Shown: positions 5,589-56,084 of the stretch, piece by piece
Layout of the letters: each line of letters begins with the position of its first letter
Position numbering within the stretch: position 1 is the stretch's first letter
Source: Hyphomicrobiales bacterium
GTDB lineage: Bacteria > Pseudomonadota > Alphaproteobacteria > Rhizobiales > RI-29
Assembly: GCA_016125495.1 (NCBI GenBank)
Contig: WGLQ01000006.1
Span: 1 to 64,000, forward strand
DNA: 64,000 nucleotides
Direction: 5' to 3'
Position numbers and translations under genes: made by a program
Notes under the pieces: generated by a model
Database searches by the model: none
Seen by the model: the letters and a program-made list of their open reading frames with translations, nothing else
Told to the model about the DNA's origin: nothing

Positions 5589-6322
5589 GGTCCGTCCTCC
5601 TCGATCGGCGTCGCGTTGGCCGCCGGTGACGCGGTGGAGACCCGCCAGGCGAGCAGCGCGGCAACGCTCATGCCGGCAGCCGCGCCCGCGATGATGTACC
5701 AGGTGCCCTCGACGTGGTGCTCGACGACGATGGCCGCGAGCGCTGAAGCGAGCACGACCAGCCCCGTTTCGCGCCCCTTCCAGAAGCCGACGATGAGGCC
5801 GATGAAGAGCGCGGCGAAGGCGAAGTCGAAACCGAAGCGCGCCGGGTCGGACAGCAGGTTGCCGACGAGCGCCCCGATCAGCGTGAAGACGTTCCAGTTG
5901 ACGTAGAGCGAGAGGGCGAGCCCGAAATAGTAGGCGGTCGTCAGGGGCGCGAGGCGCGCCCTTCGCTCGGCCAGCGCCCAGGTTTCGTCGGTCAGCAGGA
6001 ACAACCCCGACCAACGGGCACGCGGCCCGAAGCGGCCGAGGGAGCGCGCGAGCGACGCCCCCATCATGACATGGCGCAGGTTGATGACCAGCGCGGTTGC
6101 CGCGAGCGTCAGCCAGGGAGCAGGCTCGCGCCAGATTTCGATGGCGACGAACTGGGCGCTACCAGCAAAGACGATGGCGCTCATGAGTACCGTTTCGAGC
6201 GGCGTTAGCCCCTTCTGGACGGCGAGCGCGCCAAAGAGCAGCCCGATCGGCGCGGCCGCGGCCAGCACCGGCAGCTGATCGCGAACGCCAAGGAGGAATT
6301 CGTCACGCGACGTGCCGGTCAT
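5585..6322 (-). CDS. azlC: AzlC-family transporter, large subunit
   Basis: A 245-residue polytopic membrane protein with the AzlC signature in its first third (AAAPIGLLFGALAVQKGL, then MSAIVFAGSAQFVAIEIW) and NLRHVMMGASLA. It is the permease part of the AzlCD branched-chain amino-acid exporter. It overlaps azlD by four bases. It lies 81 nt downstream of ligA on the same strand, so partial read-through from the dcw cluster is possible. The exported substrate is not shown by the sequence. Confidence 0.88.
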   Translation of the reverse strand: MTGTSRDEFLLGVRDQLPVLAAAAPIGLLFGALAVQKGLTPLETVLMSAIVFAGSAQFVAIEIWREPAPWLTLAATALVINLRHVMMGASLARSLGRFGPRARWSGLFLLTDETWALAERRARLAPLTTAYYFGLALSLYVNWNVFTLIGALVGNLLSDPARFGFDFAFAALFIGLIVGFWKGRETGLVVLASALAAIVVEHHVEGTWYIIAGAAAGMSVAALLAWRVSTASPAANATPIEEDGP

Positions 6323-33047: not shown

Positions 33048-34292
33048 CTAGCCGACTGCGAGCTTGGGCTCGACCAGCGGTGCGACCTCCTCGTCGGCCC
33101 GTCCCGAGTTGAGGCGGATGCCGATGTAGCGGATGCGACCGGCGATCTTGGCCTTGTGGACACCGAGTTCGCCGAATTGACGCCCGAAGGTCGGCAGCGC
33201 CAGCGGCTCCTTGCTCAGTTCCTCGCACCAGTCGCAGTAGTCCTCGTAGAGGGCCGTCGCGGTGAGGCTGCAGCCTTCGGCCTGACCGACACGCTCCTTG
33301 TAGAAGCGCTCGATGTCGTTCTCGGGCGCAAGCAGCTTCTGTGGGGCCACCTTGGTCTCGACAGCGAGCGGTGCAGCCGTGTTGGCGGCAGCCGTGGCGC
33401 GCTGGGCGATCTGCGGCACGGCGGCAACCTGAGGCAGCGCATCGAGGAGGCCGCTCGCGTTGTCGTTGGCGCCCTCCTTGGTGCGAGGCCGGGCGACGAC
33501 GACGGCGGGACGCTGGTCGTAGATGCGCCACTGGCCGAGAGCCACGTAGAAGCCGAGCGAGGAGCCCAACTCGACGAGGATCGCCACCAGGATGACCAGA
33601 CCGATCTGAACCGCCTCGATGGTGTGACCCGAGAGGAAGGAGAGGGTCTCGGCCTGCGGGTCGGCCTTCGTCTCGGCGAAGTCGGCCGGGGCGGCGGCAA
33701 GCTGCGACTTGAGCGCGGCGATCTGCGTCTCGATCTGGCTGGCCTCGACGGCCGCGACATGCTCGGCACCGAGCTTGTAGTAGCTCTGGCAGAACTCGAT
33801 GCTCTTGGAGGCCGTGGCGTTCGTGCAACCACCCGTCGCGGACCAGCGCCGGTTCTGCTTGATGCCTTCGATATCGGCCGCAACGGCAGCCGCCGGGCGA
33901 TGCTCGGGAATCCAGTTCAGCCGCTCACGCAGGCGGTCGAGCTCCACGCGCACGTCCTTGTAGGACTGCACCTGCGCCGCGCGCGCGCCGGTCGTGTCGG
34001 AGCGGTTGAGCGAAGCAAATCCGAGCGCGGAGGTCAGCGAGAACGCCAGGGTTACGACCCAAAGTGTTCCCGAAGCGAGCGCGACGGACCATTTCCGATC
34101 CTTGATAGCGGCGAACAGGAAGAACGGAAGAAGCGCCTTCAAGCAGTCAGACGCCGCGCTCGCCAATCCGAGCACGGTGGAATCGAACTCCGTCTTGCCG
34201 AGCTGGTAGCCGAACTGCCAGTTCATGGCGGCCGAAACCAGAAGCAGAACGGCAGCAGCCGCAACCCCCAGCAAACCTAGAGCATGTTTCAT
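33048..34292 (-). CDS. Four-TM coiled-coil protein with winged-helix-like C-terminal domain
   Basis: A 414-residue protein of unknown function. Three hydrophobic segments (about 5-24, 43-63, 71-92) are followed by a helical, coiled-coil-like region (100-210) that contains [10 protein letters not shown] and Cys156 and Cys168. A fourth membrane segment (225-252) and a low-complexity Ala/Pro linker follow. Residues 323-394 form a separate domain with the pattern [20 protein letters not shown], then [10 protein letters not shown] and IRYIGIRL. That pattern resembles the C-terminal winged-helix tails I know from phage/plasmid P4-type primases. I recall similar whole proteins in other Hyphomicrobiales, all uncharacterised. 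ATG 34292 has GGAGGGGG just upstream. Function: not known. Confidence 0.75.
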
Positions 34293-54877: not shown

Positions 54878-55136
54878 GTGCTGACCTCCTGTTGGATCGA
54901 GACGGGGAGGGGGGCCTTGCGGCTCGGCGCGCCACCTCGTCTCAACGTGAAGTCAGTTCTGCCGCCTGCGGGCTGAATGGTGGTTGAACGAACCTGGGCG
55001 GCAATGCGGCGGGCGGTCACGGGTGAGTGAGGCGGCGCAAGCGAAAGGTGCCCAGGAAACGGAGGGCAGGGCCGGCAATCGCGTTGTGCGAACGGCGACT
55101 CGCCGCCAGTCTGGGGGCTGATCGGTGGAGGCTGCC

Positions 55137-56084
55137 ATGCTCGAAACGATTCCGCGCTCAAGCTTCAGGACGGTGCTCGCCGATCCGCCGTGGCAGTTCC
55201 AGAACCGAACCGGAAAGATAGCGCCCGAGCACCGTCGCTTGTCGCGCTACGGCACGATGAGTCTCGACGAAGTGCTGGCGATGCCGGTCGCCGACATAGC
55301 CGATACCCCGGCACATCTCTACCTCTGGGTTCCCAACGCCCTCCTGCCCGAGGGGTTGCGCGTCATGGCCGCGTGGGGCTTCGACTACAAGAGCAACATC
55401 GTCTGGCACAAGATCAGGAAGGACGGCGGTCCGGATGGGCGCGGTGTCGGCTTCTACTTTCGCAACACGACCGAACTGGTGCTGTTCGGCGTGCGCGGCA
55501 AGAACGCTCGCACTCGCCAAGCCGGACGACGGCAAGTCAACATCATCAAGACCCAGAAGCGGGAGCACTCTCGCAAGCCCGACGAACTCTACGACCTGAT
55601 CGAGGCGTGCAGCCAAGGGCCATTCCTGGAGCTGTTTGCTCGCGGCCCGCGGGCGGGCTGGACCGTCTGGGGCGATCAGGCCGAGGACTATGCGCCGAGT
55701 TGGGCGACCTATGCGAACCACTCGGCCGCCGGTTCGGACCTCGGCGAGCGCACCGGATCGAATGTCGTCATCCCGAGCGCAGCACAGGGCGGGCGGGTGG
55801 TGCGCTCGCTGGAGGAATCCGAGATCATACGAAAGCGCACCGTCGCCAATTGCCTGGAGCCGGAGGAATTCATCGGCACGGCTCTCCGACAGGCCCCCGG
55901 AAACGCGGTCACGGCCATCGATGCCCTGGCGGCCTATCGAACGACATGCTCGGCCAGGGGGCTCAATCCGGTTCCGCAACTCGCGTTCTGGAGGTCGCTC
56001 AGCGCCAAGGCGCCCCTGCTCGGTGCCGTCAAGGTGACGCGTGACGGCCGGGTGACGTACGTCGGGGTGGGACTCGCTGCCTAG
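55137..56084 (+). CDS. MT-A70-family adenine methyltransferase with extra C-terminal domain
   Basis: A 315-residue protein. The catalytic DPPW lies at 16-19 (TVLADPPWQFQNRTGK), followed by MSLDEVLAMPVADIADTPAH, LYLWVPNALLPEGLRVMAAW and the SAM-pocket segment FLELFARGPRAGWTVWGDQ. It should methylate N6 of adenine in DNA. No restriction enzyme is adjacent. Residues 225-313 are an extra domain (DALAAYRTTCSARGLNPVPQ, then GRVTYVGVGL) that resembles the tail of the four-TM protein at 33048. ATG 55137 has GGTGGAGG 5 nt upstream. Such solitary MTases are common on mobile elements. Confidence 0.88.
   Translation: MLETIPRSSFRTVLADPPWQFQNRTGKIAPEHRRLSRYGTMSLDEVLAMPVADIADTPAHLYLWVPNALLPEGLRVMAAWGFDYKSNIVWHKIRKDGGPDGRGVGFYFRNTTELVLFGVRGKNARTRQAGRRQVNIIKTQKREHSRKPDELYDLIEACSQGPFLELFARGPRAGWTVWGDQAEDYAPSWATYANHSAAGSDLGERTGSNVVIPSAAQGGRVVRSLEESEIIRKRTVANCLEPEEFIGTALRQAPGNAVTAIDALAAYRTTCSARGLNPVPQLAFWRSLSAKAPLLGAVKVTRDGRVTYVGVGLAA

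Follow-up and report, generated by a model that had tools for sequence, protein, structure and literature searches.

A Pox_D5/RFX-type winged helix common to an MT-A70 methyltransferase and a four-TM membrane protein of a Hyphomicrobiales bacterium

In the 64,000-nucleotide stretch of contig WGLQ01000006.1 analysed here (the window), two otherwise unrelated proteins, an MT-A70 methyltransferase and a membrane protein with four transmembrane segments (four-TM protein), end in similar tails, their genes lying about 21 kb apart. This locus raises the question of whether the two tails represent one module, and what such a module may do on a modification enzyme. The features concerned are the following.

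55137..56084, forward strand: MT-A70-family methyltransferase of the N6-adenine type, ending in a winged-helix tail (315 aa counted from ATG; a GTG start at 55125 is also possible)
55164..55679, forward strand: MT-A70 catalytic domain with the DPPW motif (PF05063, E 2.8e-29)
55704..55838, forward strand: flexible linker from the catalytic domain to the tail (pLDDT below 50, model residues 190-234)
55842..56081, forward strand: predicted C-terminal RFX/Pox_D5-type winged helix of the methyltransferase
55977..56021, forward strand: third helix, containing F-W-R, the putative recognition helix (DSSP on the model)
56028..56075, forward strand: basic beta-hairpin wing ending in G-R-V-x-Y-x-G (DSSP on the model)
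33048..34292, reverse strand: four-TM protein (414 aa from ATG), with homologues in the order
33108..33314, reverse strand: predicted C-terminal RFX/Pox_D5-type winged helix of the four-TM protein

The initial annotation had placed similar tails on these two proteins and described a common spacing of motifs. Both ORFs were located there, and within the window exactly these two carried the pattern Y...C - P - F[WG]R - R..Y.G..L. The leading [LI]xxxY element of the proposed spacing did not hold for the methyltransferase, in which the sequence is A-L-A-A-Y with L at position -3. Among 17,970 ORFs from all fetched loci the same pattern occurred 13 times, always in a homologue of the methyltransferase or the four-TM protein, and it was absent from shuffled ORFs across five rounds. 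Pairwise identity of the two tails is 27-29%, with a four-residue insertion in the methyltransferase after the FWR helix. A profile-profile comparison, the check proposed together with the annotation, was performed with hhalign. Alignment of 22 four-TM tails (A2) with two methyltransferase tails (A3) gave E 1.1e-8, and with five methyltransferase tails (A6) the score was 59.5 (E 2.8e-11), against a maximum of 17.9 over 300 column shuffles and 10.1 for the reversed alignment. The first four-TM tail profile held a spurious internal match, and a rebuilt profile was used. By the HMM of four-TM tails, the two methyltransferase tails scored above all 40,000 shuffles of themselves; in the opposite direction, the methyltransferase-tail HMM detected the four-TM tail of the window with a domain E of 4e-6 among about 18,000 ORFs. 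On the genome of the window, the HMM of five methyltransferase tails matched at two places and no others, with E 2.9e-45 for the methyltransferase and 5.5e-7 for the four-TM protein, and across 397 genomes of the order it matched mostly four-TM homologues. The proposal of one module on two unrelated proteins was thus borne out by profile matches in both directions, and the last ~80 residues of the two proteins are, as judged from these comparisons, homologous.

The initial annotation had taken the module for a winged helix, perhaps borrowed from phage or plasmid primases and targeting particular DNA. A set of 33 module copies comprised two methyltransferase tails together with copies from four-TM and other proteins; of these, 31 matched Pox_D5 PF03288 (best 8.2e-9) and 31 matched RFX PF02257 (best 1.4e-5), and against PDB sequences the family profile hit best the RFX1 DNA-binding domain (1dp7, E 2e-4). 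A Pfam scan with the methyltransferase tail alone gave no winged-helix match, and its PhnI match (0.006) was taken as chance. The tailed enzyme of genome G030 was the only one whose tail matched PF03288 and PF02257 at all, at E 0.087 and 0.17, below the cut-off. No relevant match was found with the methyltransferase-tail profile among PDB sequences. Scans of the sequence collections with this tail alone gave nothing, but full-length scans did find relatives. The methyltransferase tail would therefore be a distant relative of Pox_D5/RFX rather than a Pfam member, tied to the family via profile-profile comparison.

As this tail lay below Pfam detection, it was modelled without any four-TM sequence. 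The model reached pLDDT 89 alone and 91-97 inside the full protein, after the disordered linker at residues 190-234. By DSSP the elements were H12-19, E20-29, H30-43, H51-65, E68-72 and E75-83, which is the winged-helix topology (helix 1, strand, helix 2, helix 3 and two-stranded wing). Foldseek in PDB ranked RFX5 (8zjr) and RFX1 (1dp7) best, with probability 1.00, TM about 0.6 and modest E values of 0.006 and 0.03; Cdc6/Orc1 winged helices and ASFV PrimPol followed at lower ranks. In a viral structure library the named matches were dominated by D5/P4-type primases and helicases. For the four-TM tail, family membership was judged by a Pox_D5, RFX or primase profile match, and was indicated by RFX PF02257 (E 0.017, below cut-off) and by PHROG 1156, DNA primase (E 7.7e-6, residues 369-454); its better tblastn matches in phages were largely annotated as DNA primase/helicase. 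From the profiles and the predicted model together, the domain common to both proteins is a Pox_D5/RFX-type winged helix, and among phage proteins this winged helix is most often found at the C-terminus of D5/P4-type primase-helicases. A resemblance to RFX1 has been described for both the vaccinia D5 Pox_D5 domain and the ASFV C962R tail (PMC9611036, PMC10516667). With this likeness and the matches of the tail, the suggested kinship with P4 primases can be made more exact, and should be read as one with the Pox_D5-type C-terminal winged helix of D5_N/P4-family primase-helicases.

The two window proteins differ from known Pox_D5 proteins (PF03288; vaccinia D5, ASFV C962R, phage primases) in that the domain, of the same sequence family in 31 of the 33 copies and of the same predicted fold in the methyltransferase tail, is here carried by a methyltransferase or by a membrane protein, neither with a primase/helicase domain, with the methyltransferase tails below the Pfam cut-off. 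By domain scan, D5_N/SF3 helicase and Prim-Pol domains were absent from both; besides the tail, only the MT-A70 domain or the membrane segments were found. Likewise, RFX DNA-binding domains (PF02257; RFX1 1dp7, RFX5 8zjr) gave the best PDB matches of the tail model and of the family profile, but the tail is only about 16-19% identical to them and falls below the Pfam RFX cut-off, and its binding to DNA is putative.

A search for further proteins with the module, also suggested initially, detected Prim-Pol plus D5_N primase-helicases, primases in annotated phages, small proteins and a Bro-N antirepressor-like protein (L130:2174-2974, forward), the C-terminal end of which is the same winged helix. 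In genome G030, an integrated element bounded by tRNA-Lys and an integrase (L129:1417-18914) contains a module-bearing membrane protein, a Prim-Pol, a terminase small subunit, two radical SAM proteins and a tailed methyltransferase. Genome G155, at two loci, and genome G109 encode another MT-A70 methyltransferase whose gene overlaps the ORF for a membrane protein carrying a degenerate module (L135:2379-3919, reverse; L021:1453-3029, forward; L025:521-2031, reverse), and a Replic_Relax gene (PF13814) comes next after the overlap in G155 and G109. By this overlap, enzyme and membrane/winged-helix protein also form an apparent operon.

The four-TM protein consists of three N-terminal membrane segments, a soluble cysteine-bearing segment of ~130 residues, a fourth membrane segment, a linker and the winged-helix tail. 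Hydropathy of the window protein gave three clear membrane segments, with the fourth (residues ~41-62) under threshold, and several relatives show four. Given four segments, with a positively charged loop linking the second to the third, the tail would lie in the cytoplasm, a location that fits DNA binding. Homologues in the order (about 40-68% identity) are conserved along most of the length, and a match was present in 36 of 199 sampled genomes. No match was found in the plasmid collection, and a pattern scan of viral contigs found no relative. Two more four-TM paralogues occur in the same genome (G000:C34:19895-20656 and G000:C7:430168-430878; L139, L140), the tail match being weak in the L139 paralogue.

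The methyltransferase belongs to the MT-A70 family, with 102.7 bits for PF05063 against a cut-off of 23.9 and with the DPPW motif present; D16, P17 and W19 of this motif are invariant among 51 homologues. It matched also the PADLOC type II methyltransferase profile PDLC03221 at E 1.5e-88. As to the origin of METHYLTRANSFERASE, five tailed methyltransferases were found: that of the window, L147, L148, L149 (Henriciella) and that of G030. L147 and L148 come from two Hyphomicrobiaceae MAGs, and their enzymes are 74-75% identical to the window methyltransferase over full length. Nearly all other close homologues, phage ones included, end shortly past the catalytic domain, indicating that the tail is not needed for basic activity.

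The surroundings of the relatives point to a restriction-modification origin. Directly upstream of the tailed enzyme and on the same strand, a BglII-family (PF09195) endonuclease was found in L148 (5108-5950, forward; E 9.7e-22) and in L149 (1589-2377, forward; E 2.1e-20), so that both have the neighbouring endonuclease expected of a type II restriction-modification system. Of the 123 close methyltransferase homologues, a set that includes tail-less enzymes and consists nearly entirely of them, 84 have a BglII-family endonuclease no more than 800 bp away (61 upstream on the same strand, 22 downstream and convergent). In L147, a fragment of a BglII-family endonuclease (5780-5974, forward), 66% identical to the C-terminus of the L149 enzyme, was found directly upstream of the tailed methyltransferase; by its sequence, this locus is a decayed restriction-modification system. 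Beside the window methyltransferase neither an endonuclease nor a remnant was detected by tblastn and upstream search, and PF09195 had no match in the whole genome; the adjacent cognate endonuclease of a type II system is thus missing at this locus. Its neighbours are a CARDB protein and an opposite-strand acyltransferase, neither of them a phage gene, and among the neighbouring genes checked no recognisable phage element was found. The pairing of the relatives with endonucleases and the type II profile, together with the absence of an endonuclease here, indicate that the window gene belongs to a type II restriction-modification lineage and now stands alone. The likeness to BglII-family systems (PF09195) resides in the catalytic-domain clade, which pairs with such endonucleases; the window copy differs in having none in its genome.

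One member of this clade, L016 (1402-2256, reverse, and 688-1383, forward), has a different C-terminal tail, HTH_58 (E 5.4e-9), and a convergent BglII-family endonuclease; the start of its methyltransferase gene is closely preceded by two AGATCT sites. Enrichment of BglII-like sites upstream of methyltransferase genes was unconvincing, AT-rich palindromes being raised generally.

In the domain tree, which has long branches, the methyltransferase tails group together (100/98) to the exclusion of every other copy. This separation indicates no recent exchange between the two window genes, and with such branches the tree names no donor. Borrowing from primases and the targeting of particular DNA, both suggested initially, are conjectural. 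In the catalytic-domain tree four tailed enzymes lie near each other and that of G030 elsewhere, which fits one or two tail gains. Between the window and L148 enzymes, identity is 58% in the tail and 87% in the catalytic domain, and pN/pS is 0.37 and 0.16, respectively, with synonymous sites near saturation. On these substitution measures the tail is faster-evolving than the catalytic domain yet constrained.

What the winged helix may do is suggested by its surface and by its attachment. F of the third helix is invariant in the tailed enzymes and R is kept in four of the five, while GRV.Y.G of the wing is invariant across all five tails; the net charge of third helix plus wing is positive (+4 and +6 in two methyltransferases). 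The winged helix probably lets the methyltransferase and the four-TM protein each hold DNA. Our preferred reading, to which we give a probability of about 0.72, is that one mobile winged helix would act as an added DNA-binding domain of a type II modification enzyme and as a cytoplasmic, membrane-tied DNA-binding domain on the four-TM protein. Connected through a flexible linker to an MT-A70 domain of type II restriction-modification descent, the tail would bind DNA through the third helix and the basic wing and so add a second DNA contact to the methyltransferase. This contact would most likely act in one of two modes, as operator binding by which the enzyme controls its own restriction-modification genes, or as a tether raising the affinity for target DNA. 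In the four-TM protein, the cytoplasmic winged helix after the fourth membrane segment would either keep DNA at the membrane or relay a signal from there to DNA. That a single clade carries two unrelated DNA-binding tails, RFX/Pox_D5 and HTH_58, favours a DNA role. Against the preferred reading stand the faster evolution of the tail and two related domains: in vaccinia D5 the DNA-facing helix is oriented otherwise than in RFX1 (PMC9611036), and in ASFV C962R it is unclear whether the domain binds DNA directly (PMC10516667).

A precedent for the operator mode is given by other type II methyltransferases, in which N-terminal helix-turn-helix extensions control the cognate restriction-modification genes (PMC3874152). 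The window enzyme resembles these self-repressors in combining a modification enzyme with an extra, putatively DNA-binding domain, but here the domain is C-terminal and of RFX/Pox_D5 type, the catalytic family is MT-A70, and no operator was found. Upstream of the five tailed methyltransferase genes, which are few and divergent sequences, no shared operator-like or inverted repeat was detected, leaving self-regulation unsupported in detail, and the window copy, having no endonuclease to regulate, counts against it. A bolder extension supposes that the BglII-type methyltransferase lineage gained C-terminal DNA-binding modules more than once, so becoming its own transcriptional regulator and persisting as a solitary epigenetic regulator after endonuclease loss, while the same winged helix ties DNA to the membrane via the membrane protein. 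This we regard as doubtful, though worth entertaining.

Among the alternatives to DNA binding, a role mainly in protein-protein contact would have the tail pair two methyltransferases or dock the enzyme on a phage replication complex bearing the same domain. According to work cited in PMC10516667, the origin-binding winged helix of phage P4 is regulated by homo- and heterodimerisation, and in G030 a stretch of about 16 kb takes in the tailed methyltransferase, the module-bearing membrane protein and a Prim-Pol primase. We judge this role unlikely, as the third helix and the wing are basic and the window copy lies outside any recognisable phage element. Somewhat less probable still is that the tail steers the methyltransferase to RNA, as a guide fused in cis. 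MT-A70 enzymes often require a partner subunit, and the prophage enzyme M.EcoPA8orf6770P, which methylates 16S rRNA and prefers RNA, needs the separate winged-HTH protein PNB-2 (PMC10810198). This pair shares with the window protein an MT-A70 methyltransferase working with a winged helix, and differs in that PNB-2 is a separate subunit and the substrate is rRNA. Against an RNA guide, the closest relatives have a DNA restriction endonuclease as their partner, the window enzyme matches type II DNA methyltransferase profiles, and the best matches of its tail are dsDNA-binding RFX domains. We give slightly less weight again to a functionless relic, a fusion merely kept in frame; the absence of the tail from nearly all close homologues, its faster evolution and the fact that the window gene stands alone would suit it, but the tail is intact in five lineages with fold and GRV.Y.G wing conserved, its pN/pS is below 1 and its model is confidently folded. 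Chance convergence of short motifs, to which a comparison of two sequences at 27-29% identity by itself would leave room, has a negligible probability and is refuted by the profile tests in both directions and the fold test.

The domain and the enzyme family are each already known, and no paper describing the combination of this winged helix with an MT-A70 methyltransferase was found in a partial literature search. Winged helices of the RFX type are familiar chiefly from transcription factors of animals and from the tails of poxvirus and phage helicase-primases. The present analysis assigns a specific restriction-modification ancestry to a solitary bacterial MT-A70 methyltransferase, and offers in the window methyltransferase a compact protein for testing winged helix and MT-A70 enzyme together. 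That one winged-helix family occurs both on modification enzymes of bacteria and on a membrane protein that is widely conserved shows the domain to be mobile and in use far outside replication.
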